From the NCBI GenBank assembly GCA_021296175.1, contig JAGWAX010000005.1, forward strand, positions 1 through 32,897: DNA of 32,897 nt, in the 5' to 3' direction. Positions within the stretch are counted from its first letter, which is position 1; each line of letters starts with the position of its first letter. The notes beneath the pieces are model-generated. The model was not told the origin of the DNA. It did no database searches and saw only the letters and a program-made list of their open reading frames with translations. This document shows, piece by piece, positions 5,689 through 32,897 of this stretch. The translations under genes were made by a program, and so were the position numbers. The stretch is from Nitrosopumilaceae archaeon (GTDB taxonomy: Archaea; Thermoproteota; Nitrososphaeria; Nitrososphaerales; Nitrosopumilaceae).

Positions 5689-5891
5689 CGCCGTGGCGGC
5701 GGTCTGGCATGCCCGCAACGGCCCCCGCGCGGCTGATGTATGTGGCGAACCGCGCGCTGGAAAATTAACTAGTTATATCTCGGCGTGCCGCATGAAGGCG
5801 AGAAGGTTTGGTTTGCTGGCATGACGGCGTTTTGCGCGTACGGCGCGGTTCGGGCCGCGCCGCGTCAGGCACGGCAGTCGGCGGCCCCCGC
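5689..5891 (+). promoter_or_regulatory. Promoter and two short upstream ORFs chained by ATGA overlaps
   Basis: AT-rich boxes lie at 5761-5768 and 5772-5779. From 5792 an ATG opens a 10-codon ORF ('MKARRFGLLA') whose stop overlaps ATG 5821. That ATG opens a 24-codon ORF whose stop in turn overlaps ATG 5892, the chosen start of the large PEFG protein. Both junctions are ATGA. The chain could couple translation of the large gene to short leader ORFs, or be chance in GC-rich DNA. Confidence 0.4.
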
Positions 5892-7448
5892 ATGACTGCG
5901 CGCGGCCGCATCAAGGGCGCCGTACGGCGCCCGGCAGCCGGCCGGATGCTGCCGACTCCTGCAATGATTGTGGTGGCGGCCGCGGCAGTAGCACTGTACG
6001 TGGCAGTCGCGCCGCAGCCCCTTCCGGACGCGTCGCTTTTGCCATACGGCGGCGGCGCCCCACCCGCCCTTGGGTCGGCGCTGGGAGGCATGATGCTGCC
6101 CCCGGCATACGGGCACGGGCTGGGACTTGACCGCATACCGTCAGTCGGGGCCGGGGACCAAAAGATCATGATACACGTCGAGATGCCGCAGGAGCTTGCA
6201 GGCGGCTCGGCCGCGGAGCGGATCACCATCACTGCCACAGACGCCACGACACGCCAGCCCGCCGGGGACATCGTATACCTGCTTGGCGCATCGCACGCCA
6301 GCCAGACGGTATTCCGGGACTATTTCCTTGCATCTGACGGCGTGCTTGCGCTTGACGTGGAGGCCGCCCGCGGCGACAGTCCGGTCATAATCGGGGAGCG
6401 GGGGGGCGACGGCGGACTCCTTCCCGATGCATGGCGCCCCGCCGGCGACAGTCCGGTCCAGATAGAGGGATCTGCCTTTGGCCACGGAGGACTCTACACC
6501 TTTGATGTCGCAGTGCACGCCATAGGGGGGGACGTAGTTACAGAGCCCGGCACGTATTATGCCGATCTGAGCATCATAGAGTCCGCGACCCATGCGGAAA
6601 CTGGCTCTGACGGAAGCCCGGTCGCATTCGGCACGAAGTCCTACTTTGATCAGATAGAAAGCCTCGAGTACGACGCCGAGTCGGGCCGCATAACCGTCGT
6701 AATGCCTTTTGACTGGAGCGAGACCCGGATGTCGCACATACCGGTGGTTCACGTGGAGACGCACTTTCCAAAGGACTTTCTAGAGTTTCGCTCGCCGGGC
6801 TACGAGGGACACGCCAACGGCGTAAAGCTCTTCAGGGCGTCGGTCATCACGGACGACTACACGCTGGAAGACGAGAGGATAGTGCATTTCGTCCTCCTGC
6901 AGGATCACGTAAGGTTCGTCAAGAACGAGATGAAGAAGACCGGCGAGCCATTCCCGGACAGCATCACATTCACGCTCGCCATGGCCGAGGAGCTGGAGTT
7001 TCCGCTGGTCGCATACACGATAAGCGAGGAGTTTCTCATCAACCTGTCGTGGGATCCGCCTGAGATACTCCCCGGCGAGGAGACCACGTTCGTGTTTACC
7101 ATACGCGACGGGCAGACCGGCGAGCCGCTCCGGAACTCGGAGTACACGTTTGTAATAGAGCAGGACGGGGACGAGATACACCGCGCGTCGGGCCAGGCGC
7201 GAATCGGGGGACAGTTTGTAAAGTTCACCTTTGCCGAGGATCAGACGGGACCCACCACGATAAAGTTCGAGGACATACGCGGCACCGGGCAGGAGACCGA
7301 GTTTGGCATTCTGGTGGTGCCCGAGTTTGGGACGGTCACAGCAGCGATGCTTGCCGCGGCCGGCGCTGCCGCCGTCGCGCTGTATGCCGCGTCAAGGCAC
7401 AACGGACGCGCAAAACGCGCAGAACCATCACTGTTGTCTGCCGCGTAA
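5892..7448 (+). CDS. Large secreted surface protein with PEFG-CTERM anchor
   Basis: 518 residues from ATG 5892; an in-frame TTG at 5808 would add 28 residues without a better signal. Residues about 24-42 are a hydrophobic signal or anchor segment. The extracellular part holds beta-rich domains. The central motif is 'YDAESGRITVVMPFDWSE', followed by 'VVHVETHFPKDF' and 'ERIVHFVLLQDH', and a second Ig-like domain begins near 'LSWDPPEILPGEE'. The C-terminus is 'VVPEFG' (PEFG from about residue 477), a hydrophobic alanine-rich helix and a basic tail, which matches the PEFG-CTERM sorting signal known from Thaumarchaeota and processed by an archaeosortase. It is a paralogue of the proteins at 18344-20350, 20613-22352 and 25133-27427. 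Ligand and role are unknown. Confidence 0.85.
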   Translation: MTARGRIKGAVRRPAAGRMLPTPAMIVVAAAAVALYVAVAPQPLPDASLLPYGGGAPPALGSALGGMMLPPAYGHGLGLDRIPSVGAGDQKIMIHVEMPQELAGGSAAERITITATDATTRQPAGDIVYLLGASHASQTVFRDYFLASDGVLALDVEAARGDSPVIIGERGGDGGLLPDAWRPAGDSPVQIEGSAFGHGGLYTFDVAVHAIGGDVVTEPGTYYADLSIIESATHAETGSDGSPVAFGTKSYFDQIESLEYDAESGRITVVMPFDWSETRMSHIPVVHVETHFPKDFLEFRSPGYEGHANGVKLFRASVITDDYTLEDERIVHFVLLQDHVRFVKNEMKKTGEPFPDSITFTLAMAEELEFPLVAYTISEEFLINLSWDPPEILPGEETTFVFTIRDGQTGEPLRNSEYTFVIEQDGDEIHRASGQARIGGQFVKFTFAEDQTGPTTIKFEDIRGTGQETEFGILVVPEFGTVTAAMLAAAGAAAVALYAASRHNGRAKRAEPSLLSAA

Positions 7449-7477: not shown

Positions 7478-7861
7478 TCAGAACGCGACTATCTTCACCG
7501 TGTCCATATACCTGTTCGTGGTGTACTTGGCCGTCATCTCGGTGATCAGCTTTGCATTCCCCTTCAGCACGAAGAGCTCCATGCACTTTTTGCCGTCTAT
7601 CTTGCTGTGCATGCGGGTTCTTATCATGTCCTCGTAGTTCTTGCTGAGATCCGACGCGACATTGTCAAAGTCGTCGTCGTGCAGCACGAGCAGTATCGAG
7701 TTTATGTTGCCGCTCAGCTCGGCCTTTTGCTTCTCCTCGGAGATGAACGACCTGATCCCCGCCCTGATTATCTCCGAGCGTCCGGAAAAGCCCAGCGCCT
7801 TCTTGTACGCGTCAATCTCAGAGAGGATCTGGTCGTTTAGGGAGATTGAGATGATCGACAT
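7478..7861 (-). CDS. NikR-like ribbon-helix-helix metalloregulator
   Basis: 127 residues from ATG 7861; upstream in-frame starts would run into the TATA box. Residues 1-45 form a CopG/NikR ribbon-helix-helix ('SIISISLNDQILSEID', 'GFSGRSEIIRAGIRSF'). Residues 50-127 resemble the NikR ACT-like domain. Compared with Escherichia coli NikR, the positions of H87 and C95 are kept (H85 and C93 here), while those of H76 and H89 appear to be Lys. The nickel site is therefore altered and the metal sensed may differ. It faces znuA across a decayed insertion sequence, and its own TATA box (7881-7890) is flanked by an inverted repeat also hinted at upstream of znuA. Likely a repressor of metal uptake; zinc as effector is inference. 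It ends 29 bases from the convergent PEFG gene. Confidence 0.85.
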   Translation of the reverse strand: MSIISISLNDQILSEIDAYKKALGFSGRSEIIRAGIRSFISEEKQKAELSGNINSILLVLHDDDFDNVASDLSKNYEDMIRTRMHSKIDGKKCMELFVLKGNAKLITEMTAKYTTNRYMDTVKIVAF

Positions 7862-7880
7862 GTACGTAGTTATTAAGATC

Positions 7881-7913
7881 AATTTTATAAGTTTTTACTA
7901 TTTATTAATAGTA
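7881..7913 (-). promoter_or_regulatory. Promoter and inverted repeat of the NikR-like gene
   Basis: On the minus strand the TATA-like 'ttataaaatt' (7881-7890) is centred about 25 bases before ATG 7861. Just upstream is the inverted repeat TACTAT-N6-ATAGTA (7896-7913), placed where an autoregulatory operator would sit. The heptamer TTACTAT recurs upstream of the TATA boxes of both znuA genes (8532-8538 and 11856-11862). Confidence 0.55.
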
Positions 7914-8528
7914 TTAAGCATGTTACATAATTCGCCGACCTTACGGACAGAATGGGATTGCCGGGTGGCCGACAGACTCCTGTGGCGGCGTGCTGTAAGA
8001 TGTTGCCCGCCATCTTGGACAGGACGTGCCCGAACGCCGCGCCTCTGACTGGGACGCGCTTTGAACCCCAACAAGATCCGGCCGCGTGTGGCGGGCGGTG
8101 CACTACAGGGGACTGGCTGGCAGTTGCACTGTCAGGCCCTCATGGCTACCCCCCCGCAGATCCGCGGCATCCTATTGTACGTGCAGATCTTTCGTCTGAT
8201 CTCCTGACAGATGCCCTCCATCTTTTTGGGCATGCCAGAGTCACCGTACGTCCTCTTGAACGCCGATATTGCGATCTCTACAAGCCACTGCTACCCGTAA
8301 GGCATCAAGGTGCGTAACGCATCGTGCCTTGCTCGTACCCTCTGCACGTTTGGAGGCACGACTTGCTTACGGCCTGCTGTCGATGAACCGGCACGTCCAT
8401 CTACACTGGGTGGTTTGGGGCACGGCAGCGCTTCCTGTCCTGTTTGCGGGGCAGTCCAGCGGCCTGTACCATGCCGCAGAGCCATACCCTTCAAGCGGGG
8501 CGGTATGAAAAATTATGTAATACGTTAA
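7914..8528. mobile_element. Decayed IS4/IS5-type insertion sequence flanked by TTAA
   Basis: About 607 bases between two copies of TTAA (7914-7917 and 8525-8528). The ends carry inverted copies of 'ttacataatt' (7923-7932 and, on the other strand, 8511-8520), 5 and 4 bases inside the TTAA respectively. A disrupted transposase frame lies on the minus strand. The element separates the regulator promoter from the znuA promoter. The left end is similar to 32821-32868 at the window edge, which suggests a family of such elements. At about 600 bases it is shorter than a complete IS of this type, so internal sequence has been lost. Confidence 0.7.
8132..8494 (-). pseudogene. Transposase remnant (DDE, IS4/IS5 superfamily)
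   Basis: Reading leftward from 8494, the frame runs to a TAG at 8291-8293, then continues in the same frame as 'QWLVEIAISAFKRTYGD' and 'MEGICQEIRRKICTYNRM', and stops at 8132. The spacing of Tyr, two residues, a basic-residue site, three residues, Glu, six residues and Lys is the Y-(2)-R-(3)-E-(6)-K signature that contains the last catalytic acid of IS4/IS5 transposases. Here the Arg is replaced by Gln and the residue before it is the TAG stop. The upstream half is poorly preserved and the catalytic Asp residues cannot be placed. The gene cannot make an active enzyme. Confidence 0.72.
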
Positions 8529-8588
8529 TCTTTACTATTTGTTATTAAGTTATAAAGCTTTATTAATAACCACTTATGCCTATCATAC
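8529..8588 (+). promoter_or_regulatory. znuA promoter (first copy)
   Basis: 'TTACTAT' at 8532-8538 is followed by a TATA element 'tttattaata' (about 8559-8568), centred 25 bases before ATG 8589, so the transcript is probably leaderless. The TATA region and the next few bases ('tttattaataaccac') are identical before the second znuA. The heptamer is the candidate operator half shared with the NikR-like gene. Confidence 0.6.
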
Positions 8589-9638
8589 ATGGTGTCTAGG
8601 GCGGTCTACGCGGGTATCGCGATCGCAGTGATAATCCCGCTTGCCATATTTGTCGTATACAGCACCACGATAGAGCCGGAACCGGCAGATGTGCAAGACG
8701 TGACTCCGGTAGAGGAGCCAAAGATATTCGTATTATCATCGTTTTACCCAATTGAGCAGTTTGTAAGTAATGTGGGCGGGGACAGGATCGAGTCGGCGCT
8801 GGTTCTGCCGCCGGGCGCCGAGCCGCATGACTGGGAACCCACGGTCAAGGATGTCCAGAATATGAAGAGCGCAGACGTTGTCGTGATTAACGGAATCGGG
8901 TTTGAGACGTGGGTGGAGAGTCTGGGAGACATCGGGTTTGAGGGCGTCTTGATTGATACCAGCAAGGGAATAGAGGTGATGGAGGCAGTGGAGGGCGCAC
9001 ATGGCCATGAAGACGAAGACGAAGACCACGGCATGGAGGCCAAGGAGGACGATGACGACGACGACCACGGCATGGAGGCCAAGGAGGACGATGAGGACGA
9101 AGATCACCACGAAGATGAGCTGCTCGGCGATCCCCACATATGGTTGAACCCTGTTCTCGTCCAGATACAGGTACAGAATATCGCCGACGGGCTTTCAGAG
9201 GCCGATCCCAAAAACGCCGACTACTATCAGGAAAACGCCGACAGGTACATCGCAGAGCTGCAGCAGCTGGACTCTGACATCAGGGCCGGGCTGGAGTCGT
9301 GCTCCCGTGAGTTTGTAGCGTTCCACCAGGCGTTTACCTACTTTACATTAGAGTATGGCTTGGTCCAGCACACCATACTCAAGTCGGCAACCCCCCATAG
9401 TGAGGTCGCCCCGAGAACGCTCCAGGCCGTAATTGAGACTGCCAAGGCGCAGGGCATAGACGTCATATTCACCGAAGAGGCAGTCGATCCTAGGACCGCA
9501 CAGGTTGTTGCAGATGAGATAGGCGGAAGCGTTATGGTCTTGTCGCCACTTGAGATTGGAGAGCCTGGCGAGACGTACGTATCCAAAATGTACAATAACC
9601 TCGAGAACCTTCAGGTAGCATTATGCCACGACCAATAG
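8589..9638 (+). CDS. znuA: Zinc ABC transporter substrate-binding protein, copy 1
   Basis: 349 residues of the cluster A-I (ZnuA/TroA) family. Residues 5-27 are an N-terminal membrane anchor or signal without a lipobox Cys. Probable metal ligands are H80 in 'AEPHDWEP', H183 in 'DPHIWLNP', H246 in 'AFHQAF' and an acidic residue near 'FTEEAVDP'. Between residues 138 and 176 is a loop rich in His, Asp and Glu, typical of zinc-specific members, containing a 13-residue tandem repeat 'DHGMEAKEDDDDD' (39-bp DNA repeat, 9024-9101). It captures zinc outside the membrane for ZnuB/ZnuC. Its end overlaps znuC by 16 bases. A second, diverged copy lies at 11903. Confidence 0.93.
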   Translation: MVSRAVYAGIAIAVIIPLAIFVVYSTTIEPEPADVQDVTPVEEPKIFVLSSFYPIEQFVSNVGGDRIESALVLPPGAEPHDWEPTVKDVQNMKSADVVVINGIGFETWVESLGDIGFEGVLIDTSKGIEVMEAVEGAHGHEDEDEDHGMEAKEDDDDDDHGMEAKEDDEDEDHHEDELLGDPHIWLNPVLVQIQVQNIADGLSEADPKNADYYQENADRYIAELQQLDSDIRAGLESCSREFVAFHQAFTYFTLEYGLVQHTILKSATPHSEVAPRTLQAVIETAKAQGIDVIFTEEAVDPRTAQVVADEIGGSVMVLSPLEIGEPGETYVSKMYNNLENLQVALCHDQ

Positions 9639-10390
9639 AGGTCTCCAATCTAAGCGTGGGCTATGCCGGAGTGCCGGCCCTTGAGAACGTGTCATTTGCG
9701 GTGGACCAGGGAGAGTTTCTTGGTATAATAGGGCCCAACGGAGCGGGTAAGTCCACACTCTTTGCATGCATGCTTGGACTCAACACGCAGTATACCGGAA
9801 CGGTAAGGATATTCGGGCAGGACATACATAGGTCTAGGAGTCCACTCAGAAAGATCGGATACGTGCCGCAGATGGTGCACTTTGAACGAAACTTTCCCAT
9901 TACGGTCCGGGAGGTAATACGACTGGGAATGTGGCACGGCGTGCAGGAAGAGCGAGTAGACGAGGTGATGCGCGAGTTGTGGATACATGAGCTTGCGGAT
10001 CGGCGGATTGGGGAGCTCTCCGGGGGGCAGCAGCAGCGCGTATTTATTGCAAAGGCCATAGTAAATGATCCCCAGCTGCTCATTCTGGACGAGCCCGTCA
10101 CGGGCATAGACCAGCCCAGCATGAACCTGTTTTATGGAATACTGAAGGATCTCAACTCAAACCACGGGATAACCATCGCGTGGTCGTCGCACGATCTTGA
10201 CACCATAAACATGATGTCAAGTCACGTGGTATGCCTGAACCGTACGTTGCACTTTCACGGTGCTGCCAAGGCGTTCTTCTCTGACGAGAAACTGGTACAG
10301 ATCATGTGCAAGTGCACCGACCCCTCTGAATGCACGGATCACAAGTGCGACGTTGCCGAACCCCCGCCCATAAGAAATGAAGCCTCGTGA
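9623..10390 (+). CDS. znuC: Zinc ABC transporter ATP-binding protein
   Basis: 255 residues. Walker A 'GPNGAGKST' (37-45), signature 'LSGGQ' (132-136), Walker B 'LLILDEP' and the switch histidine H190 in 'SSHD' are all present, so it should be an active ATPase powering zinc import. The start ATG lies within the end of znuA, indicating coupled translation. The C-terminal tail has four cysteines (C229, C231, C237, C242) and H240 within 14 residues, a potential metal site that is not part of the core ABC domain. It could let the ATPase sense metal, but this is inference. Confidence 0.94.
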   Translation: MPRPIEVSNLSVGYAGVPALENVSFAVDQGEFLGIIGPNGAGKSTLFACMLGLNTQYTGTVRIFGQDIHRSRSPLRKIGYVPQMVHFERNFPITVREVIRLGMWHGVQEERVDEVMRELWIHELADRRIGELSGGQQQRVFIAKAIVNDPQLLILDEPVTGIDQPSMNLFYGILKDLNSNHGITIAWSSHDLDTINMMSSHVVCLNRTLHFHGAAKAFFSDEKLVQIMCKCTDPSECTDHKCDVAEPPPIRNEAS

Positions 10391-10459
10391 CATTGGTGGG
10401 TGGTTGCAGGTGATTATGGCCATGACAGCGGCAAGCAGCAATGCGTGTGGGGGAATATA

Positions 10460-11278
10460 ATGGTCTTTGAGGTGCTCGAGTACGACTTTATGCAGCGGGC
10501 GCTCTTGTCAGGCACCACCATCGCTGTGCTGTGTTCTGTAGTCGGCATGTTCTTGGTGCTGAGGCGCTACTCGCTGTTCGGTGACGCCATAGCCCACTCC
10601 TCGTTTGGCGGCGTGGCTCTGGGGCTCTTTATGGGCATCTACCCGCTGTGGATGGCGTACGTGGTATCCATAATCAGCGCCGTGCTGATCACGCGGATCC
10701 GGGAAAAGTTCGACGTGTCCGGAGACGCGGCAATCGCGGTGATGCTGTCGTCCGGGATAGCGGTGGCGCTGGTCATCATAGGACTGGCCGGGGGGTTCTC
10801 AATTGACATATTCAGCTTTCTGTTTGGAAGTATACTGCTTGTAAGCGCCCATGACACCATACTGGTCCTGGCAATGACCGGCTCCATCCTGCTTGTCATA
10901 CTGGCGCTCTTCAGGCAGATACTGTACTCTACGTTTGACGAAAAGCAGGCAAAGGTGAGTGGAATACACGTGGAGCGGATAAACTACCTGGTAGTGTTTA
11001 TGGCGGGGCTGACCGTGGTCACTGCAATACAGCTCGTAGGGGTGCTGCTCATATCTGCACTTTTTGTCATACCAAACGTCACTGCCATGATGCTGGGGCG
11101 CGGGTTTCAGAGCACGATTATCATATCGATCGTGATCTCCATATCGTCTGTAATTGCGGGGATAATGCTGTCGTATTCCCTGAATATAGCCCCTGCCGGA
11201 AGCATAGTCCTCCTGTCAATATGCATGCTTGGGGCCTCGATGGCGGCAAAGTCGACCGGACTGTTTGCCCGGCGGTAG
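10460..11278 (+). CDS. znuB: Zinc ABC transporter permease
   Basis: 272 residues with about eight hydrophobic segments, the ABC-3 (ZnuB/MntB) family. Hallmarks are 'SLFGDAIAHSSFGGVALG' near residue 40, the family's conserved cytoplasmic loop contacting the ATPase, and 'QLVGVLLISALFVIPNVTA' near residue 195. ATG 10460 is preferred over an in-frame GTG at 10400, because the extra residues lack family similarity. It lies 69 bases after znuC in the same operon. Its last 180 bases are also found, decayed, at about 12970-13198. Confidence 0.93.
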   Translation: MVFEVLEYDFMQRALLSGTTIAVLCSVVGMFLVLRRYSLFGDAIAHSSFGGVALGLFMGIYPLWMAYVVSIISAVLITRIREKFDVSGDAAIAVMLSSGIAVALVIIGLAGGFSIDIFSFLFGSILLVSAHDTILVLAMTGSILLVILALFRQILYSTFDEKQAKVSGIHVERINYLVVFMAGLTVVTAIQLVGVLLISALFVIPNVTAMMLGRGFQSTIIISIVISISSVIAGIMLSYSLNIAPAGSIVLLSICMLGASMAAKSTGLFARR

Positions 11279-11346
11279 GCTCGCCGTCACGCCATCCGGC
11301 CTCCCCCCTGTTGTACACTGCCTTCACATGGAACGGCGGGGCGGTA
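11279..11346 (-). pseudogene. Duplicated 3' tail of the CopC/CopD fusion gene
   Basis: Immediately after znuB, the DNA resembles 13196-13260, the last codons of the large minus-strand CopC/CopD gene. Read leftward it encodes 'FHVKAVYNRGEAGWRDGEP', matching 'FYVKAVRDRRRLDGM' at the true C-terminus. No upstream part of that gene is recognisable here. It marks one end of a tandem duplication that covered the zinc transporter and the end of its neighbour. Confidence 0.65.
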
Positions 11347-11855
11347 GGCCCGTAGAACTCCACGAGCTGCTAGGCAAAGCCTGTGTATACGGCCGTGTGC
11401 GAACGGCCTTGATGCCGACGTCTTGGGACACGAGGGTATGCAGTTTAGAACGGCTGCCATCTTCTGTGTACAGTACTGGTGTTACATTTTCTGCCGTCCC
11501 CGACGTCTTTTGCATGGCACTTTTGTGCAAGCGGCTCCATCATCTCCTGCCATCTGCCTTGCTGTACATGCGAGGTAGTCGTCGTCGTCACTACATCCAC
11601 GCGACCGCTTCCGCGGTTTGATGCAATGCCGTCAGAATCGTCACCGTCGTGCATAGCAGGAAATGCTGCGCCATCCTGCCGGCCGTATCCGTCTTTTCCC
11701 GTCGTCGACAAACTCCCTGGTTCCAGCTCTGCCCGTCTTGGATCCGCTGGCAGAACCTAGGGATCTCGATGCGAGTCCAGTCGGATAGCGTCTGGCCGTT
11801 GAGGCTGCAGCACGCGGCTATGCTTGTTATATTAATTGTAATTTCTTAATAATTA
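11347..11855. other. Apparently non-coding stretch between the duplicated units
   Basis: About 510 bases follow the duplicated tail. Short open frames occur on both strands, but none has a credible start, hydrophobic pattern or family resemblance. Base composition is like its surroundings until the AT-rich znuA2 promoter begins near 11826. I see no structured RNA or transposase signature, although the stretch may be decayed coding DNA. Confidence 0.4.
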
Positions 11856-11902
11856 TTACTATCTTTCAAAGATTTATTAATAACCACCTGCGTACACTGT
11901 GC
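11856..11902 (+). promoter_or_regulatory. znuA promoter (second copy)
   Basis: 'TTACTAT' at 11856-11862, then 'tttattaata' at about 11873-11882, centred 25 bases before ATG 11903. The TATA segment is identical to the first copy. The heptamer is 10 bases closer to TATA than in copy 1, one helical turn, so a bound regulator could occupy the same face of the DNA. Confidence 0.55.
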
Positions 11903-12925
11903 ATGGTATCCAAGGCGGTCTACGCGGGCATCGCGATCGCAGCGATAATCCCGCTTGCCATATTTGTCGTATACGGCACCACGATAGAGCCAGAACCAGC
12001 TTATGTGCAAGGCGCGGCTCTGGCAGATGAGCCAAGGATACTAGTATTGTCGTCATTTTATCCAATTGGGCAGTTTGTAAACAACGTGGGTGGGGACAGG
12101 ATCGAGTCGGCACTGGTTCTGCCGCCGGGCGCCGAGCCGCATGACTGGGAGCCCACCGTCAAGGACGTCCAGCGTATGAGGGGCGCAGACGTTGTCGTGA
12201 TTAATGGAATCGGGTTTGAGACGTGGGTGGAGAGTCTGGAAGACATCGGATTTGAGGGCGTCCTGATTGATACCAGCGAGGGAATAGAGGTGATGGAGAT
12301 AGCTGAGGGGACACGCAGCCACGGCCATGGAGGCGAAGAAGGCGACGGCCACGGCATGGCGGTTAGGGATGATGATGATGATGGCGACGACGGCTACGGA
12401 GACAAGATGCTCGGCGATCCCCACATATGGCTGAGTCCGGTTCACGCCCAGGTACAGGTACAGAATATCGCCGATGGGCTTTCAGAGGCCGATCCCAAAA
12501 ACGCTGACTACTATCAGGAAAACGCCTACAGGTACATCGCAGAGCTGCAGCAGCTGGACTCTGACATCAGGGCCGGGTTGGAGTCGTGCTCCCGTGAGTT
12601 TGTAGCGTACCACTATGCGTTTGCCTACTTTTCAGCAGAGTATGATCTGGTCCAGCACGTCATACTAAATTCGATGACCCCGCACGGCGAGATAGCCCCG
12701 AGAACGCTCCAGGATGTGATTGAGACTGCCAGAGCGCAGGGCCTAGACGTCATATTCACCGACGAGGCAGCCGATCCCAAGACAGCGCAGGTTGTTGCAG
12801 ACGAGATAGGCGGACAGGTCCTGATTTTATCGCCGCTTGAGATTGCACAGCCCGGCACTACATACATGTCCAAAATGTATGAAAACCTTGAGAGCCTCCA
12901 GACGGCGCTGTGCCGCGACCAGTAG
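11903..12925 (+). CDS. znuA: Zinc ABC transporter substrate-binding protein, copy 2
   Basis: 340 residues, a close paralogue of the protein at 8589 with most of its length aligned without gaps. The ligand histidines H80, H174 and H237 are kept. The acidic/His loop (about 138-163) has diverged: it contains 'HGHGGEEGDGHGM' followed by a short Asp run and lacks the 13-residue repeat of copy 1. Sequence similarity to copy 1 continues past the stop into what was the start of znuC, after which the transporter genes are missing. The protein probably works with the intact ZnuB/ZnuC of copy 1, perhaps with different affinity. Confidence 0.92.
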   Translation: MVSKAVYAGIAIAAIIPLAIFVVYGTTIEPEPAYVQGAALADEPRILVLSSFYPIGQFVNNVGGDRIESALVLPPGAEPHDWEPTVKDVQRMRGADVVVINGIGFETWVESLEDIGFEGVLIDTSEGIEVMEIAEGTRSHGHGGEEGDGHGMAVRDDDDDGDDGYGDKMLGDPHIWLSPVHAQVQVQNIADGLSEADPKNADYYQENAYRYIAELQQLDSDIRAGLESCSREFVAYHYAFAYFSAEYDLVQHVILNSMTPHGEIAPRTLQDVIETARAQGLDVIFTDEAADPKTAQVVADEIGGQVLILSPLEIAQPGTTYMSKMYENLESLQTALCRDQ

Positions 12926-13198
12926 GAGCTGGTGTGTGGACGGATGGCGCCTGTTCTTCCAGTATCTGGTCGCCGCCATAATACTTGGGGGCGCGGGTTT
13001 CAGAGCACGGCTGCCCTGTAGATCGGGATCTCCGCATCCCCCGTAATTGTTGGATGATGGGTGGGGGGGAGGGGAAAGAGAAAGATAATGCCGCCGTATT
13101 CCCTGTATGCCGCCCCTGTTGGAAGCACAGTTCTCCTGTCAGTATGACGCTTGGGGCCCCAATGGCGGCAGAGTCAACCGGATCGCTCGCCGGGCGGC
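12926..13198 (+). pseudogene. Remnant of duplicated znuC start and znuB 3' end
   Basis: The bases around the znuA2 stop still align with the first codons of znuC ('gtgccgcgaccagta' against 'atgccacgaccaata'). From about 12970 the DNA matches the 3' end of znuB: it shares 'gcgcgggtttcagagcacg', then the codons for 'MLGASMAAKSTG' appear as 'TLGAPMAAESTG', up to the CopC/CopD gene. All of znuC after its first codons and most of znuB are deleted, and the rest carries substitutions and frame changes. It cannot encode a permease. Confidence 0.8.
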
Positions 13199-16100
13199 AT
13201 ACTCATCAGCATGCCGTCCAGCCTCCTCCTGTCGCGCACGGCCTTCACATAGAACAATGAGGCTGCCATCACTCCCAAGGCCATCATGGGCGAGACGAGG
13301 TCCGCGTACTTGACCTCGTATGCGGGTTCCTCCTGCTGCCCCTGCGCGCTGTACATGCTGGGCCTCTCGGAGACGTACACGGCCCCTACCTTGCCTCCCC
13401 TCTGCTCTGCAAACCATATGTTTCCGTCGCCGTCGGACTCTACAAACTGCACAAACGACGTGGCGGTCGGAACCTCCACCTCGGCCATGTCCCCGTTGCG
13501 CGGGTCAATGACGCCTATGACGTCTATGGTGTGCTGCGCAAACCAGACGTTGCCGTACCTGTCAAAGGCCATTCCGAACGGAAGCGCGTCGGCGTCTTGC
13601 ACCTCGTACCTTGCAAGCGTGTCCAGCACGGGATCAAACCTTGCGACTGCAAGGCCCGTGTGCTCCGTGATCCAGAGGCCTCCCCCCTCCGACTCATCCT
13701 CAAAGAGGAGGGCCTCCGGTGCCTCGAGCGGCCGGTCGGGGCCGATTACCTGCGTCAGGCTGCCGTCGCCGGGATCAATGTACCCGACGGTCCCGGTTCC
13801 CGTGGCCGTATACCACATCATACCGCCGGGCCCCTCCGCCAGCGCGAACGGAAACGAGTCGCGGCCCGGGACGTGAACCTCGTCAAACTCTCCGGACTGC
13901 GTGTCATACCTTGCTATCAGCCCCTTGTTTATCACGGTGAACCACACGTCGCCGTTCCCGTCGGACTCGATAAAAAATGGCACGGCCCTCTCGTCCGTCG
14001 GATCCGACCGGGGCTGCCTTGACTCAAAGTCCGGCGTCTTTATGGTGGTTATGACATAACCGCCGCTGCCGCCGCTGCCCTGCTGCCTCGCGTACCCGAT
14101 CTGGCCGCCCCTGCTGTCGGTAAACCATATGCTGCGGTCCTTTTCGTTATATGTGACAAACGACGACGAGACGCCCTCAAACCCGTGGGGGGTAGCTGTG
14201 CCGGTCCCCGTGTCGACCTGCCACAGGCGCGGCGCCGACGCGTCGGTGAACCAGACGCTCCCCGCATGGTCGTACGCGGCATGAAGCGGACTTGTGCCAT
14301 TGGCAGGAAGCTCGTACTCTGCGAGCGTGACGTCCATGTCGTCCAGGCTGGGCCTCGCGGTTATGTCGAGGCGCACCGCCTCGTTTGCGCCCTGCGTGCG
14401 CTGGGCCTCTATCTCGACGAGCCACTGGCCCGAGAATGCAAGCGTGAGCACCCCCTGGTATGTGACGGAGTCCACTGCCGCTTCCCCCGCCTTGTCCCGC
14501 GTTACATCCCGCAGGTCAAGCTCGATGGGTGGTATGTCCCTGGCTGGGTTCGACGCCTTTGCCTTTATCCTGTCCAGATCGTCCAGAACCGTCTGATCCG
14601 CGCCCGAGGCCGTTATGATGATGCCGTTCTCCCCGGTGGCAAACGGGGTTATCTCTATGTCGAACCTCACGTTCTCGGAGAACTTGGTCACGGCAAACCC
14701 CGCATATGTCTGCTGCGCGTCGGCGCTCCGTATCTCGCCTGCGGGAAGCGTCCCGTTGGTGAGTACTGCCACGACCACCAAAAGTGTTATTCCGAGCGCC
14801 GCGTCTACCTTGAGCGTCCTGCTGAGCCTGCCGTATACCCGGGGCTTTCTTGATGCTGCAATGTCGGACTCCGCCCTCTTCTGTATGGTGTACTGGACGA
14901 GCCCGCCCATGCCCACCATGATCGACGCGATTGCGACCTTTAGTATGATTAGCCTGCCAAATACCGATTCGGTAATCATGCCCACATCACTCTCCAGCGT
15001 CCACAGCAGGGTGGGGCCCGTCACTATGACTATCCCCACCGATACGATGAATATGGCAGAGAACCTCGGGATTGCGGCCAGGCTGAGCCGGTCCCTAGCG
15101 TCGGGAAATCCCGAGAGTGCGGGCAGGAGTCCGAACACGATGTATATTATTCCACCTATCCATATTCCTGCCACTATGTTGTGGATATAGTCCAGGGTTA
15201 CCGCCTCGGCCGTCTCCGTCGCCGCGCCGTGCCCTGACATGCTTGACGTCAGCATGAGGGCCAGCGCGGCCGCCAGCATGGCCGCGTGCATCGTCTTTGG
15301 CCTCGACCTGCCCGTCCTGTTGGCGGCAAACCATATGCCAAACAGAGCCATGGTAATTATCATTCTTGCAAGCCATATCATGCCAAACTGGGTCTGGACT
15401 GTCTCCACGAGCCCGGACTCCAGCCTTGACATCTGTAGTGCGATTACCATCATGTCCGACGCCAGCACGAGCAGCAGGCCCGCCCCCGTAAGCTGCATGA
15501 ACCTCTTGTTGTGTTCTAGATCCATTGCCGACGATGTCGACGATTCGTCCCCGCCGCGCCGCTTGCCCCTGCCCGCTTCCCAGACTACGATTGCCGCCAC
15601 CGCGGCCCCCACTATTATGGTCTGGCCCACTATTCCTGGGAGCTCGGCGCCCGCCTCGGGCAGGAACAGCAGTTCTGTCGGCTTTTCCTGCAACAATAGC
15701 TCGGGATCTATCGTTGCCCCTCCCACGCCAAACAGAAAGACGCCGGGAACCAGGTGGCCGTCCACCTTTGAGAGCACCTTTGTAGAGACTGTGTAGACCC
15801 CATCCTCAAGGGGCGGCGTCGAGACAGCCAGCGCCAGATCCTTGTGGTAGTACGTGAGGTCCCTGTTGTCGATGCGCTCCCCCCTGTCGTTAATGACCTT
15901 GATCTCGCTGAACTCTATGTCCACCGATTCTGAAAAGTATACTATCACCTCGACTGTCCCGGCGGGCGCGTTCTGGGCCGTACTTGGGATGGTCTGGTCT
16001 ATGTATGGGTGGGCAGATGCGAGCGGAACCGCGGGCGACGCCAGCATGAGGGGTATTGCTAGGACCGCCAGCAGGATCATGACCCGCGCGGCCTTGGCGG

Positions 16101-16230
16101 CAGTGTTGGCAGTAGCCGGCGCCGATGACGGTGATGATGATGACGACGACGACAACGATGACGCGCGCAGTGGAGGGCTTGCCGCCGCGCCCCTTTTTGC
16201 GGCCTGCATAGGAAGTGACATGATCCGCAT
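13174..16230 (-). CDS. CopC-CopD copper protein fused to a Vgb/NHL-like beta-propeller
   Basis: 1018 residues. After a Ser-rich cytoplasmic N-terminus and a signal helix (about 50-72) comes a CopC domain beginning at H74 in 'AHPYID' and including H159 in 'VDGHLVPGVF'. A membrane segment near 200-216 is followed by a CopD domain (about 245-495) with 'MSGHGA' (H334) and 'YIHNIVAGIWIGG' (H350). Residues 500-630 form a beta-rich domain. Residues 640-965 contain seven 'GNVWFA/WFTD'-type blades like virginiamycin B lyase propellers. A last membrane helix lies near 978-1000. CopC binds copper outside the membrane and CopD is thought to carry it inward; the propeller's role is unknown. ATG 16230 fits a TATA box at 16254-16261. 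The 3' end overlaps the znuB remnant. Confidence 0.87.
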   Translation of the reverse strand: MRIMSLPMQAAKRGAAASPPLRASSLSSSSSSSPSSAPATANTAAKAARVMILLAVLAIPLMLASPAVPLASAHPYIDQTIPSTAQNAPAGTVEVIVYFSESVDIEFSEIKVINDRGERIDNRDLTYYHKDLALAVSTPPLEDGVYTVSTKVLSKVDGHLVPGVFLFGVGGATIDPELLLQEKPTELLFLPEAGAELPGIVGQTIIVGAAVAAIVVWEAGRGKRRGGDESSTSSAMDLEHNKRFMQLTGAGLLLVLASDMMVIALQMSRLESGLVETVQTQFGMIWLARMIITMALFGIWFAANRTGRSRPKTMHAAMLAAALALMLTSSMSGHGAATETAEAVTLDYIHNIVAGIWIGGIIYIVFGLLPALSGFPDARDRLSLAAIPRFSAIFIVSVGIVIVTGPTLLWTLESDVGMITESVFGRLIILKVAIASIMVGMGGLVQYTIQKRAESDIAASRKPRVYGRLSRTLKVDAALGITLLVVVAVLTNGTLPAGEIRSADAQQTYAGFAVTKFSENVRFDIEITPFATGENGIIITASGADQTVLDDLDRIKAKASNPARDIPPIELDLRDVTRDKAGEAAVDSVTYQGVLTLAFSGQWLVEIEAQRTQGANEAVRLDITARPSLDDMDVTLAEYELPANGTSPLHAAYDHAGSVWFTDASAPRLWQVDTGTGTATPHGFEGVSSSFVTYNEKDRSIWFTDSRGGQIGYARQQGSGGSGGYVITTIKTPDFESRQPRSDPTDERAVPFFIESDGNGDVWFTVINKGLIARYDTQSGEFDEVHVPGRDSFPFALAEGPGGMMWYTATGTGTVGYIDPGDGSLTQVIGPDRPLEAPEALLFEDESEGGGLWITEHTGLAVARFDPVLDTLARYEVQDADALPFGMAFDRYGNVWFAQHTIDVIGVIDPRNGDMAEVEVPTATSFVQFVESDGDGNIWFAEQRGGKVGAVYVSERPSMYSAQGQQEEPAYEVKYADLVSPMMALGVMAASLFYVKAVRDRRRLDGMLMSMPPGERSG

Positions 16231-17356: not shown

Positions 17357-18298
17357 TTATCTGTTTTGGGGGTTTTCTGTGTGAAGTCTTGCACGTACCA
17401 GTTTGGTGCACTTCAGGATTGCAAACGCTGGAATTCCAACATACATTCCCAGGTTCAGCAGGACAACTGATATGCCGTATCCGAGCATCTCCGTCTCTGT
17501 GTCAATGTCTGCATGGTTTAGCAGCGAGAGTGTGGAGAGCATTGGAGTTAGTGCCACCTTGACTGTTTCCCTGAACGCCGGATTCTCTCTTTCGAGATCT
17601 GCCACCGCCGGGGAGAATGTATAGTATATGCTGTTGAATCCGGACATAAATGCCGTACCGGACTCTGTTGCAAGTACCGTGTTGTCTCTCAGTTCTCTAA
17701 GTTGCTGAACTTGTGGTGCAAGCTCGGAGCCAAATGCCGCAGTTGCAATAAGGCAACCACCGGTCTCCTCGTCTGCCGCCGACGCGTCATCCATCATGGT
17801 GTCGTCCATCATCTCCTCGTCGTCGCCCATCATGGTATCATCCATCATGGTGTCGTCCATCATCTCCTCGTCGTCGCCCATCATGGTATCGTCATCACCA
17901 TGTGTTGCTTCTACTATGATCTGGCCGATCATCCACGGATGAACAAGGCAGTAGTGACTGTATTCTCCCTCTTCATCTATTGTGAACTCGTACGTGGCCC
18001 CGACCAATACCAAGCCGCTGTCAAACACGCCGGTCATGCCGTCTGCTGGAGAGCCTGATGTCAGTGTGTGTGCTGCATTGTCTGTGTTTGAGAAAGTTAT
18101 CGTGGTTCCTGGAGCTACTGTCAGTATGGGCATGTTGTAACAACCCTCGTCGGTCTGCTCACATCCTGCGGTGGCCGACCCTGCAAGGGGCTCGAGCACC
18201 GTATTCGGATGATCTGCAAATACCGGGGGGGTAGTCGCAACCATTCCTGCCACAAGTACGGACAGTAAAAAGAACGAACTGATTGTTCTAGTCTTCAT
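17357..18298 (-). CDS. Cupredoxin (plastocyanin-like) with CFI-box C-terminal domain
   Basis: 313 residues. Signal peptide 1-29; cupredoxin domain about 30-131 with type-1 copper ligands H77 ('NAAHTL'), C117, H120 and M123 ('YCLVHPWMIG'). C46 and C53 may form a disulfide. An acidic linker follows with two copies of a 17-residue unit 'TMMGDDEEMMDDTMMDD' (138-171). Then comes a CFI-box C-terminal domain beginning 'GGCLIATAAFGSELAP' (C182), with 'LRELRDN' and a hydrophobic segment (about 272-296). The cupredoxin likely carries electrons or copper at the cell surface, tethered by the C-terminal domain. Such blue copper proteins are abundant in ammonia-oxidising archaea. A TATA box is centred about 25 bases before ATG 18298. 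Confidence 0.9.
   Translation of the reverse strand: MKTRTISSFFLLSVLVAGMVATTPPVFADHPNTVLEPLAGSATAGCEQTDEGCYNMPILTVAPGTTITFSNTDNAAHTLTSGSPADGMTGVFDSGLVLVGATYEFTIDEEGEYSHYCLVHPWMIGQIIVEATHGDDDTMMGDDEEMMDDTMMDDTMMGDDEEMMDDTMMDDASAADEETGGCLIATAAFGSELAPQVQQLRELRDNTVLATESGTAFMSGFNSIYYTFSPAVADLERENPAFRETVKVALTPMLSTLSLLNHADIDTETEMLGYGISVVLLNLGMYVGIPAFAILKCTKLVRARLHTENPQNR
17786..17887 (-). repeat. 51-bp tandem duplication coding the Met/Asp linker
   Basis: Two adjacent 51-base units (17786-17836 and 17837-17887) differ at only one base. Each encodes the 17-residue acidic Met-rich unit of the cupredoxin linker. Near identity points to recent expansion or ongoing homogenisation. Confidence 0.85.
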
Positions 18299-18343: not shown

Positions 18344-20350
18344 TCACATATGAGTGACCGATCTGTGGTTTACATGCTGCCGCCTTTCTACCACCCGCAT
18401 GCTCGTGTCTGGCAGTCTGTCGTCTCTCCACCTCTTTAATCTCTCACACGCTATGACTGTGACTGCAACCGGGAGTGCCACGTAGACTGCCCCGTTCAGC
18501 GCGATTATGGAGATGCCGTATGCCAGCATGTCGTATTCCGTCCCTATACTGGTGCCGTCAAGCAACATGAGCGATACCAGCATGGGTGTCAGTGCGATTC
18601 TGGTCATGTCACGCAGCGTTTGGTGCTCCCTTTGAAGGTCGGCCACTGCAGGGGAGAACGTATAGTATATGGAGTTGAATCCGGACATGAATGCCGTGCC
18701 GTATGCGGTTCTCAGTATGGTATTGTCCCTCAGCTCCCTGAGCTGCTGTACCTGCGGGGCAAGCTCGGAGCCGTATGCGGCAGTCGCAATGAGGCAGCCG
18801 CCGCCCTCTTCCTCATTGTAGGACGTTTCTCCCGCCCCGTTCGCACCTGCCGTTACGCCTATCGTACCGTCGTCTATGACGGCGCCGCCTGATACCCTGT
18901 CTATTACGATAGGCATGGAGGTTCTGGCGCGCTCGTTGCCCTGCAGCCTCTCAAAGTTGAGGTATGCTATCCCGGAGACGCCCTGGGGCATCTCAAACTC
19001 CGCCACGTTTGTGGGGTCGTCCCTCGAGTCCGTACTGACGCCTGACTGCTCAAAGATGGTACTGCCGTCCTCCGTTGTTACGGAAAAGTGGTACTCTGCT
19101 GCAATGGGCGCGCCCTTCAAAAAGACGTCTGTTACCTCGAAGATTATCCTGGCGTTCTGGCCGGACCTCAGCTCCTCTGGTTCCCACGAGGCGAATATCC
19201 GGAACTGGCCGTTCTCCGTCACTGACGCTATGCGCGTATGGTTGGTGTCGGGCCTGATTACAAAGTTCATGATGTCGTCCTCCTGGCCGCCGCCGCCGTC
19301 TCGTATGCTGTAGAGCTGCTCCTGAGGTACGATAAAGTGCACTATTCTCTCCCCCGTGAAAAAGTCGTCAATCAGCACCGTCTCCTCTGGTAGCCTTACG
19401 TCGTTTATGTAGAGCTCGAATCCCGACAGCAGGAGGTCCCCATACGTGTCCGGTATAGAGAGCTCCTCGTGCACCACATATGACTGGTCTATGTTAGAGT
19501 CGCTCCACTCAAACGGCATAGAGTACCTGATCTCCCTTGTCTTGGAGTCGTACTCAAAACCGGCTATCTTGTCGTAGTATGTGATGACCCTGATGTACTG
19601 GTCCCCAAAGTTGGGATCCTTTACGCCGTACGTGGTTATCATCGGGATGGATATGCCAGAGTCGTACCCTATCGGGGAGGCCAGGCGTTCTGAATAGTCG
19701 CCTGCCGTAACTATGGAAATGTCAAACTTGTAGAGTCCACCGTCTGCAAGGCTTGGCCCTGACACGCGGACGTTCCTGCTCTCGACTCCGAGCAGGTACG
19801 AGACAATGTCGTACTGATCGCCTCCCTCTCCCCCGTCGCGCACTGTTATCTCATCGCCCGCGCTGTCGTCTGATGCAAAGTTAAAGACGAGAAACCCGTT
19901 ATCGGCCCTGAATTCCCGCTCAAAGAGGAACTTGTTTCCAAGCTCGGCCCTGATGTAAAACGTCACGTCGCGGAGCGTAACTTTCGAGTCAAAGTCGACG
20001 AGAGCTACCCCTATCTGCAGGTCTTCGCCCGGCACGATCCCGGCCGGTGGCCGTCCCGTCGTCTCCGGCGGTGGGGGGGCAGACGATGATATCTCCAGGG
20101 CAACCTGCCGCCCGTTCAGTTCTACCGGGGGGAACGTCTCGCTCGACGTGCCGTGCCCTGCGGCAGGCTGTATGCCGGATGCGGCCATCGCCGTAACGCA
20201 TACTGCCGTCAAGACAAGGACTGCGGCAAGGGATGCGTACGGCGATGGTTGTGGTTGTTGTCGTTGGGCCGGATGCCGCTGTCGTAGACATCCTCCTGCC
20301 GCGAGTATCGGCCCCCCCGTTGTTGCAGCTGTGGTTGTCATGCTTGCCAT
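18344..20350 (-). CDS. Large secreted surface protein with CFI-box C-terminal domain
   Basis: 668 residues from ATG 20350, three bases after the stop of a small upstream ORF. A long cytoplasmic N-terminus precedes a signal/anchor helix (about 40-60). The extracellular core has the family motifs: 'GLYKFDISI' (206), 'FEYDSKTREIRYSMPFEWSD' (265-284), 'YVVHEELSIP' (291), 'GERIVHFIVPQ' (333), and a second beta domain from about 385 ('ASWEPEELRSGQ'). The C-terminal CFI-box starts 'GGGCLIATAAYGSELAP' (C519) and ends with hydrophobic helices (about 607-635) and a basic tail. The core is shared with the proteins at 5892, 20613 and 25133. Function unknown; probably an envelope component. Confidence 0.85.
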   Translation of the reverse strand: MASMTTTAATTGGPILAAGGCLRQRHPAQRQQPQPSPYASLAAVLVLTAVCVTAMAASGIQPAAGHGTSSETFPPVELNGRQVALEISSSAPPPPETTGRPPAGIVPGEDLQIGVALVDFDSKVTLRDVTFYIRAELGNKFLFEREFRADNGFLVFNFASDDSAGDEITVRDGGEGGDQYDIVSYLLGVESRNVRVSGPSLADGGLYKFDISIVTAGDYSERLASPIGYDSGISIPMITTYGVKDPNFGDQYIRVITYYDKIAGFEYDSKTREIRYSMPFEWSDSNIDQSYVVHEELSIPDTYGDLLLSGFELYINDVRLPEETVLIDDFFTGERIVHFIVPQEQLYSIRDGGGGQEDDIMNFVIRPDTNHTRIASVTENGQFRIFASWEPEELRSGQNARIIFEVTDVFLKGAPIAAEYHFSVTTEDGSTIFEQSGVSTDSRDDPTNVAEFEMPQGVSGIAYLNFERLQGNERARTSMPIVIDRVSGGAVIDDGTIGVTAGANGAGETSYNEEEGGGCLIATAAYGSELAPQVQQLRELRDNTILRTAYGTAFMSGFNSIYYTFSPAVADLQREHQTLRDMTRIALTPMLVSLMLLDGTSIGTEYDMLAYGISIIALNGAVYVALPVAVTVIACERLKRWRDDRLPDTSMRVVERRQHVNHRSVTHM

Positions 20351-20569: not shown

Positions 20570-20612
20570 TCTCGTCTGTTGTGTTAAAGCTTATCGCGTC
20601 CAACCGCTGCCG

Positions 20613-22352
20613 TCAGGTCACGCGTATTATTCCCTCTTTTATCAGGTACTGCAGGCCTGACACAAAGGACCCGTCGTCTATTGCGCCCTCGGCCCACCAG
20701 CCCGCGTTGGTCTTTATCCACGACGGTATCTCTGCCGCCGCCGCACCATCCGTAGTGCCGTCTAGGCCCTGGTCGTCGCCGCCATCGGCGACTGGCACCA
20801 CGAGTACTCCGCTCTGTATCAGGTACTGTATGCCGGTCACAAACGTGGCGTCGTCTATTGCGCCCTCGGCCCACCAGCCCGCGTTGGTCTTTATCCACGA
20901 CGGTATCTCTGCCGCCTCCGTGCTTGGGGGAGTGCCGTCTGCGGGCGCCCCGGGCCCGATCTCTATGAGCCCGGATCCGATTCCCGAATACGTGGGGTCG
21001 TAGTCAAGGCCGGTCCCGTATACAATCACATCCATCCTGATCAGTCCCTCAGACGGTATCTTGATGTTCTGCACGTCTATGCCTTCCAGCGAGGCTATCC
21101 CCGTATTGAGCGGGTCGTTTCCAGAAAACCTTGCTATCTGACTGCCCGACTCGTCGCTCACTATGTATCCGTACCAGACGTCCTTGATCAGCTTGTTGTT
21201 CTGATTCAGGAAAGTGAACTCGAACGGGATCTCATCGCCCGCGCCGTACTGCCCGTCCCACTCTATGATTACGGTCGTCGGGGCTTTCTCCTGCATGGTC
21301 TCAAGATCCACCAGGTAAAACTCCACGGAGCTGACATCCACCTCCTCGATGGGAACGAGCTTCAGGTTCATGTTCTTGCTCTCGAACCTGTCGTCCTCCA
21401 TGCTCTCGCTGATCCTTTGCAGCTCGTTGTTGGTTATCAGGAAGTGGATCACGTTTGTGTCCTCGTCCCAGTAGGGATCATTCAGCAGGGCCCGCTGATC
21501 CACCTCCACCCCGTTTACGTACCCCTTGAACTGCTTGCCCTCGGCATACGGCACAAAGTCCTTGGGGATCCTGATCTCCTCGTGCACCACCTGGACTAGG
21601 TCGACATAGTCCGGCGTCCAGTCAAACGCCATGTCGAACGTGATGGAGTTGTCTGACGGTTCAAATTCAAAGTTCTTTACGTCGTCGTAGTACGTCTTGA
21701 TTATTACGGGAATCTCCTCGGCGTGGGCGGCCTGTATTGCAAAGTTCTGCTCCTGGGCCACGCTGACAAACGTGTCGTAGCTCAGCCTCTCTGCAAGCTG
21801 CACTCTGGGGCTGGTCGCGCCTTCGATGTCGACGCGTACGTGGTACAGCCCCCCCTTCTCGAATATGGGCCCTGTTATGGTGGGCCTCGCGCATACGTCG
21901 TAGTTGTCGCCGGTGCACGGCTCCCCGTACACGAACAGGGCGCCGGGCGAGCTGACGTGCTCCGAGCCGCCGTACTTGCTGCATAGTCGCGGCTCCGCCT
22001 GGTCGCAGTCCGCATTGGGGCGGATCTCCACGTCGAGGCTCCCGTCTGGATCGTAAAAGAGGTTCCTTGCAAGCAGCTCGCCGCCGCGCCACATCTCTAT
22101 CCTGTACGTGACCTTTTCGAGCGTGGTATCTGTCAGCGTGTCAAAAAACCTGACCTTCATGTTTATGTCGTCGATGTCCCCTATCGTGATGTCCGATGGC
22201 GTGAGGTCTGTGCGTACGGTCACCTCCATTCCCGAAAAGCTGATGGGTGGTGCCTGGTCGCCTCCGAGTCCGTGCCCAGAGACCGTCTGGACGGCAGCCG
22301 GAATTATGGCAATGGCGACTATGGTCGCTAGCAGCGCAAGTCTATTGTACAA
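20613..22352 (-). CDS. Large secreted surface protein with two C-terminal GWW repeats
   Basis: 579 residues from TTG 22352, chosen because TATA 'tatattta' (22373-22380) is about 25 bases upstream; GTG 22370 is an alternative adding six residues. A signal helix ends near 'TVSGHG'. The extracellular core shares family motifs: '[17 protein letters not shown]', '[12 protein letters not shown]' and '[11 protein letters not shown]'. Pairs of cysteines occur in an insertion near residues 110-150. The C-terminus has two repeats of about 38 residues beginning '[19 protein letters not shown]', with no PEFG or CFI-box anchor. The repeat is common in thaumarchaeal surface proteins and may bind the cell envelope, which is inference. 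Divergent from the gene at 22479. Confidence 0.85.
20673..20916 (-). repeat. Two identical 67-bp segments inside the GWW repeats
   Basis: Bases 20673-20739 and 20850-20916 are identical over 67 bases, while the DNA between them differs. They encode the '[12 protein letters not shown]' core. Identity at third codon positions suggests recent duplication or gene conversion. Confidence 0.85.
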
Positions 22353-22478: not shown

Positions 22479-23228
22479 ATGTTTATGAAGGCAGTCTTGG
22501 TTGCTCTGGTGCTTGCCGCTGCATGCGTGCTTGCCGCCGGACATCAGGCGCATGCCGAGACCCAGACCTTGTCCACCGAGCAGGGAGCCATAGACGTCCA
22601 GCTCGTGTATGACGACATGATAATGCCGGGCGAGGAGACCAAGATCAAGGTGGACTTTCTGAATCCCGTAACCGGTAGGACTCAGGAGCACATAGACTAT
22701 ACGATTACGATTACCAGAGATGGGGAGCAGGTATTCGGACCTACCAACCTCATACATACGTCTCCCGGCACCATAACTCTCCCGGTACAGTTCCAGAATG
22801 CCGGCGTCCATTCCTTGGGCTTTACGGTGGAGGGGATACTCTTCCAGCCCATTCCCGCCGAGGCCGTATCATTTGAGATACCTGTGGGGGAGGATGTATC
22901 GGCACCCGCAGCGCCAGACGTGGCGGTGATCCCGCCGTGGGTCAAGAGCAACGCCGGGTGGTGGGCCGACGGCCTGATAGACGATGCCACGTTTGTATCC
23001 GGAATCGAGTATCTGATACGGAGCGGCATACTGGTCGTTCCCGTCGCCGATACTGCCAGTGACCCGGGTAACGGTGCGGACGGCAGTGGGGGAGAGGACG
23101 CGCCGGGGCCGCAGATCCCGCCGTGGGTCAAGAGCAACGCCGGGTGGTGGGCCGACGGCCTGATAGACGATGCCACGTTCGTGAGCGCCCTGCAGTTTCT
23201 GATTACGGCCGGAATCATACGGGTCTGA
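22479..23228 (+). CDS. Secreted protein with one beta domain and two GWW repeats
   Basis: 249 residues from ATG 22479, or 247 from ATG 22485, which fits the TATA box better. Residues 1-26 are a signal peptide ending '[10 protein letters not shown]'. An Ig-like domain of about 110 residues ('[20 protein letters not shown]') is followed by two repeats beginning '[19 protein letters not shown]', ending '[13 protein letters not shown]'. There is no membrane anchor, so the repeats are the only candidate for attachment. It is divergent from the larger GWW protein and may be co-regulated with it. Two 65-base segments (22929-22993 and 23115-23179) inside the repeats are identical. Function unknown. 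Confidence 0.85.
22929..23179 (+). repeat. Two identical 65-bp segments inside the GWW repeats
   Basis: Bases 22929-22993 and 23115-23179 are identical and encode '[16 protein letters not shown]' plus the next five residues. The spacer between them is unrelated. As in the neighbouring gene, the two copies inside a gene are more alike than copies between genes. Confidence 0.85.
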
Positions 23229-32545: not shown

Positions 32546-32897
32546 CCAAAGCAAGAATCATCCTGGGTGCGACATAGTGGTCGGGAGGAAAGCGGCGCTC
32601 CTGCCTGAAGTCCACCATCTGTACCCGGATGCGGTTGTCGCCGTTGGCGCTGTCTGGCATGCGGTGAATCCGCTGCGCCCGCATAACGGCTCGCTTCCAA
32701 ACAGCCGTCAGTCCGGCCCGCCGGGCAGCCCGCCGCCGCAGGCTCTGTCCGACGACGACGGCGCAAAAGATCTGCAGCTCGAGCATTATGATCATCCCCT
32801 GTTTGGCATAAGGCCCGTCTAGCGTGTTGCATAATTCGTCGACCCAACGGACAGAACGGAATTATCAGACGTCCGGCGGGCCACGCGGCGGCGCGCT
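32546..32897. other. Window end: no intact gene, terminal segment resembles an insertion sequence end
   Basis: Open frames on both strands from 32577 to 32820 lack any recognisable family feature. From 32821 to about 32868 the DNA resembles 7917-7964, the left end of the decayed insertion sequence, in the same orientation ('cataattcg', 'acggacagaa' shared). If this is a second copy, the rest of the element lies beyond the window. Confidence 0.45.

Follow-up and report, generated by a model that had tools for sequence, protein, structure and literature searches.

Two adjacent ZnuA-family binding proteins beside one permease: relics of a tandem duplication in an archaeal znu locus

A presumed zinc-uptake locus in an archaeal genome (hereafter W; 1.78 Mb in 166 contigs, completeness 91.5%) carries two intact genes for ZnuA-family metal-binding proteins, and the second of these, znuA2, is flanked by remnants of the genes that accompany the first. 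The best joint explanation, to which we assign a probability of roughly 0.88, is the tandem duplication of a unit comprising a nikR-like gene, znuACB, and the 3' end (tail) of a CopC/CopD gene, followed by partial loss of the second copy, with both binding proteins sharing the one permease. The locus lies within the window, i.e., the whole stretch of 32,897 nt that was analyzed. The G+C content of the window (58%) and the relatives of W point to the Cenarchaeum-like branch, and W is a marine ammonia-oxidizing archaeon, with a presumed habitat as a sponge symbiont. For comparison, 95 genomes of the genus were searched with ZnuA and with the CopC/CopD protein, and W was compared with the relatives G102 (independently assembled) and G093 and with the outgroup G019. 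The phage collection that was searched gave no match, and nothing useful was found in the literature on ZnuA or NikR in this archaeal genus.

The duplicated unit and its relics

A ZnuA-family binding protein, an ABC-3 permease, and an ABC ATPase together identify the locus as a ZnuABC-type (cluster A-I) system (Table 1). The start of znuC lies within the end of znuA1, the two genes overlapping by 16 nt. The start of the nikR-like gene was set at the conserved MSIISISL (7861); a longer span (7478–7882) was also used.

Table 1. Features of the znu locus in W, in window coordinates.
Feature	Coordinates	Strand	Basis
NikR-like regulator gene, intact, unit 1	7478..7861	-	Pfam NikR_C 42.9 bits (cut-off 22), RHH_1 24.1 (20.5)
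znuA1 core promoter, TATA-like TTTATTAATAAC	8555..8588	+	sequence; promoter alignment
znuA1, metal-binding protein	8589..9638	+	Pfam ZnuA (PF01297) 266 bits vs. cut-off 29
znuC, ABC ATPase, sole copy at the locus	9623..10390	+	Pfam ABC_tran (PF00005) 124.3 bits
znuB, ABC-3 permease	10460..11278	+	Pfam ABC-3 (PF00950) 222.6 bits vs. cut-off 20.1
CopC/CopD 3'-end copy, right end of unit 1	11279..11344	-	z 9.3, 0/2000 shuffles
Duplication junction somewhere inside; no detectable homology to either flank	11345..11444		
nikR-like second copy, frameshifted relic, left end of unit 2	11445..11838	-	alignment z 8.5–10; tblastn
znuA2 promoter, conserved TATA-like TTTATTAATAAC	11839..11902	+	copy and promoter alignments
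znuA2, second metal-binding protein, intact	11903..12925	+	Pfam ZnuA (PF01297) 256 bits vs. cut-off 29
Deletion junction, unalignable to znuC/znuB; partly common to G102	12926..12968		
znuB relic, last ~200 nt, unit 2	12969..13201	+	E 7e-38 alignment; in-frame stops
CopC-CopD-beta-propeller gene, intact	13174..16230	-	Pfam CopC, CopD, Vgb_lyase

The duplication is directly visible when the locus is aligned with itself. In a blastn comparison between halves, the promoter and znuA (8526–9638 vs. 11839–12925) are 82% identical across 1,118 nt (E 0.0), and the 3' ends of znuB and of the CopC/CopD gene (11078–11334 vs. 12969–13255) are 69% identical across 289 nt (E 7e-38). Taken alone, the CopC/CopD tail (11279–11344 vs. 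13202–13266) scores 148, compared with a shuffle mean of 57 (SD 9.8) and none of 2000 shuffles as high. The TATA-like TTTATTAATAAC stands upstream of both znuA genes, about 26 nt before the ATG; the promoter alignment took in both copies from two genomes as well as G093 and G019. A TATA box at this distance from the ATG is expected for archaeal leaderless transcripts, and we infer such a layout for both promoters and separate transcription for znuA2.

Downstream of znuA2, the copy of znuB is reduced to a relic that, in a protein search of W's own genome, is interrupted by in-frame stops (two TGA and one TAG); it also contains a 30-nt insertion. The stop positions show that the intact CopC/CopD gene extends, with its last codons, antisense into what was formerly the end of znuB. 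Nothing is left of the second znuC beyond the 16-nt overlap with znuA, and the 43 nt that follow the znuA2 stop codon (12926–12968) resemble znuC or znuB no more than expected by chance (z about 0); the exact deletion breakpoint is unalignable.

Upstream of znuA2, the segment 11445–11838 aligns over its whole length with the NikR-like gene (z 8.5–10 against the intact gene of W, G102, and G093), and tblastn finds it as a collinear series of fragments in two reading frames (E 2e-4), i.e., as a frameshifted relic. Since this relic precedes znuA2, the duplicated unit comprises nikR, the promoter, znuACB, and the CopC/CopD tail; the junction between the units falls within 11345–11444. A copy of the upstream gene 5808–7448 was sought in the junction and none was detected (z 0.6). 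Both ends of the unit are repeated in register, internal genes are missing from one copy, and relatives are single-copy, which is the pattern of tandem duplication followed by deletion.

A good part of this picture was anticipated by the preliminary description, which had proposed a duplicated unit of promoter, znuACB, and neighbor tail from a TATA segment common to both znuA genes, similarity that extends into the opening codons of znuC and then jumps to the last ~200 bases of znuB and the CopC/CopD 3' end, and a copy of that tail behind the intact znuB. The common TATA segment, the jump, and the tail copy are all recovered in the alignments above, as is the absence from the second copy of znuC and of the greater part of znuB, and the pairwise alignment it had named as a check is significant for the znuA unit and for the znuB remnant alike. 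The similarity to znuC holds only through the znuA/znuC overlap, the following 43 nt being at chance. The proposed unit is borne out in the alignments and in relatives but proves larger, the upstream extension of similarity into the nikR relic having been missed.

Relatives and the age of the duplication

The arrangement is conserved in a second genome. Among the 95 genomes of the genus, it was found in one other, G102, where contig L083 carries nikR and the N-terminal half of znuA1, and contig L082 carries the C-terminal half of znuA1, znuC, znuB, znuA2, and then the CopC/CopD gene. The copied CopC/CopD tail is present after the intact znuB of G102; its znuB relic is nearly all lost, and G102 and W have the beginning of the deletion junction in common. 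Since this independently assembled genome has the arrangement too, an assembly artifact in W is unlikely. An apparent frameshift in znuA2 of G102 was rejected, as the break in its linker is a run of N, i.e., a scaffold gap. In G093 and the outgroup G019, the locus is single-copy, with the order nikR, znuACB, CopC/CopD, and elsewhere in the genus one znu cluster lies beside the CopC/CopD gene. Relatives thus display the unduplicated state that the preliminary description had expected of them. It had also stated that a relative with a second znuA and no znuB remnant would speak against duplication; G102 does not do so, since a portion of the deletion junction and the tail copy are both retained there.

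G093 is the closest of the single-copy relatives but does not offer a clean picture of the locus before duplication, because its znuACB allele is divergent. In the rpoB and thermosome regions, W, G102, and G093 are about equidistant (89–96%). The nikR, CopC/CopD, and downstream genes of G093 are close to those of W (dS 0.12–0.22), and its nikR and CopC/CopD genes are at dS 0.12–0.50 from W and G102 taken together. Its znuC and znuB are at dS 0.88–1.00 from W and 0.84–1.04 from G102, the znuACB genes (L084, 7653–10511) being far more divergent from both genomes than the genes that flank them. Judging by these distances, homologous recombination probably exchanged the znu genes of G093 for a more distant allele. 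The ancestral gene order is taken from G019 and from the other members of the genus. Reciprocal loss of paralogs in G093, with the second unit kept, was considered and rejected, as the relic in W resembles the znuB of W and G102, not that of G093.

Among the informative znuA sites of W and G102, 46 group by paralog (A1 with A1, A2 with A2), 13 by genome, and 2 otherwise, which places the duplication before these two genomes split. In the ZnuA tree, the A2 proteins of W and G102 form a clade (support 100), and the G093 protein branches outside A1+A2 (support 85). The genome-type sites crowd into the central part of znuA: paralog-type and genome-type sites number 42 and 4 outside this region and 4 and 9 within it (Fisher p 3e-5, for boundaries set post hoc; scan test p 0.005). 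Because of this clustering, patches of gene conversion between znuA2 and znuA1 are probable; the longest-identical-run test for conversion on znuA was not significant.

A variant of this history, differing in timing only, is possible but distinctly less probable: the duplication may have preceded the separation of the three Cenarchaeum-like genomes, with a later loss in G093 upon replacement of its znuACB by the divergent allele. It would fit the observation that the three genomes are about equidistant and yet znuC and znuB of G093 stand at dS 0.84–1.04, as against 0.12–0.50 for nikR and CopC/CopD, so that the znu genes of G093 would have been replaced or would represent the other lineage of a hidden duplication. 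However, no loss in G093 is required, because the relic in W is of the W/G102 type and the G093 ZnuA branches outside both paralogs.

Under the preferred reading of tandem duplication and partial loss, the ancestral unit nikR(-)/znuA-znuC-znuB(+)/CopC/CopD 3' end(-) was duplicated in an ancestor of W and G102, leaving the original CopC/CopD gene intact at the right and the original nikR at the left. The inner, second nikR decayed by frameshift, and deletion removed the second znuC and most of the second znuB. The surviving znuA2 retains a separate TATA box and has remained subject to purifying selection, probably with patchy conversion with znuA1. Capture capacity or range might then change without a second pump, ZnuA1 and ZnuA2 differing mainly in their acidic/His-rich linker.

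Selection on ZnuA2 and its predicted role

Judged from its substitutions, znuA2 is under purifying selection: omega is 0.24 (95% 0.17–0.34) for the gene of W and its G102 ortholog and 0.15 for the A1 pair, i.e., the A2 protein evolves somewhat faster. In alignments with solved ZnuA proteins (PDB 2o1e, 1pq4), His80, His174, and His237 of ZnuA2 coincide with the metal-ligand histidines and form the inter-lobe three-histidine set, and the same motifs are kept in ZnuA1. Given this omega, the retained ligands, and its own TATA box, znuA2 is not in decay. The acidic/His-rich linker between the lobes has 45 residues with 3 histidines in ZnuA2 and 54 residues with 6 histidines in ZnuA1. The ZnuA linker is an expanding in-frame minisatellite with units like HGMEAKDDDD, whose copy number differs per species (8990–9120 in the window; L083 5540–5716; L082).

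The search of W's own genome found no znuB besides the intact copy and the relic, in an assembly from which a further permease could be missing because it is 91.5% complete and in 166 contigs. ZnuA2 is, to that extent, a second binding protein without a permease of its own, and most likely two extracytoplasmic binding proteins, ZnuA1 and ZnuA2, serve one ZnuBC permease, with ZnuA2 predicted to dock on ZnuB.

Zinc is only the presumed substrate, because both proteins score below the cut-offs of the zinc equivalogs, i.e., ZnuA NF007091 (cut-off 268; 112.8 for ZnuA1 and 93 for ZnuA2) and AztC NF040870 (cut-off 350; 162.1 and 157.3), and because the neighboring regulator is NikR-like. A NikR-like gene beside the znu cluster is kept across much of the genus and is syntenic in many members, and in view of this conservation a nickel-type sensor may control the presumed zinc importer. 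It is conceivable, if unlikely, that the shorter linker and changed residues of ZnuA2 have specialized it to hand a different metal to ZnuBC, e.g., nickel, which is suggested by the adjoining regulator, or another divalent ion. If true, one pump would be toggled between metals by two tandem binding proteins.

A slightly smaller chance still is given to ZnuA2 being a functionless passenger heading for loss. Such a fate would suit a gene whose neighbors nikR2, znuC2, and znuB2 are dead or gone, and whose product evolves faster than ZnuA1 and has fewer linker histidines; against it, the ORF, the ligand histidines, and the TATA box are kept in two species, and omega is low even at its upper bound of 0.34. 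By far the least probable origin of znuA2 is horizontal transfer or dispersed duplication with a chance landing beside znuB and no duplication of a whole unit, since, although unlinked extra ZnuA genes exist in the genus (G013 C1:308809, G093 C33), relics of nikR, znuB, and the CopC/CopD tail flank both copies collinearly, and A1 and A2 are sisters within W's clade in the ZnuA tree.

Comparison with known systems and further features of the locus

Two binding proteins with one permease are a known arrangement, AdcA and AdcAII of E. faecalis having been inferred to share AdcBC (PMC8966984); W provides a new example, a product of ordinary genome evolution that is unusually legible. Like AdcACB with the orphan AdcAII in streptococci and Enterococcus faecalis (PMC8966984), the locus pairs a single ZnuABC-type permease with two binding proteins of cluster A-I. 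However, AdcAII is unlinked and Zur/AdcR-controlled (PMC8966984), whereas znuA2 of W adjoins the operon, derives from a visible tandem duplication with relics, is archaeal, and lies near a NikR-like regulator. The phosphate-binding proteins PstS and PhoX of Xanthomonas citri (PMC5439949) are likewise two binding proteins for the same type of ABC importer within a single genome; unlike the ZnuA proteins of W, they differ in substrate and family, and their origin is not traced through relics here. Within W's genus, the nearly complete genomes G013 and G030 carry two or more ZnuA genes and a single close ZnuB homolog, but their extra ZnuA genes lie elsewhere in the genome and not in tandem. Unlinked extra ZnuA genes alongside a single close ZnuB homolog were noted at G013 C1:308809, G030 C6:61536, and G093 C33 (L087).

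The locus of W thus illustrates a well-preserved route to a second binding protein, in which a whole operon is copied and the binding-protein gene alone is retained; most steps are readable as relics, and the arrangement is held in two species. It also yields a testable paralog pair, differing mainly in the acidic/His-rich linker, from uncultured metal-dependent ammonia oxidizers.

Several further features of the region were observed. The gene at 13174–16230 is a single gene that fuses CopC, CopD, and a virginiamycin-lyase-like beta-propeller; across the genus, the CopC/CopD gene is convergent to znuB, with overlapping ends (57 nt in G093). An insertion of ~0.6 kb at 7917–8527, between nikR and znuA1, is absent from G102 and G093. 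Both of its ends recur elsewhere in the genome (C82, C146, C67, and also window positions 32821–32897), and a TTTACTATTT-like stretch lies on both sides of it. It resembles a small mobile element or repeat that has displaced the regulator from the znuA1 promoter. The right part of the window contains two diverged repeat families, some of them inverted (17394–17767, 18470–18803, 27017–27390; 20594–20940, 22900–23225).
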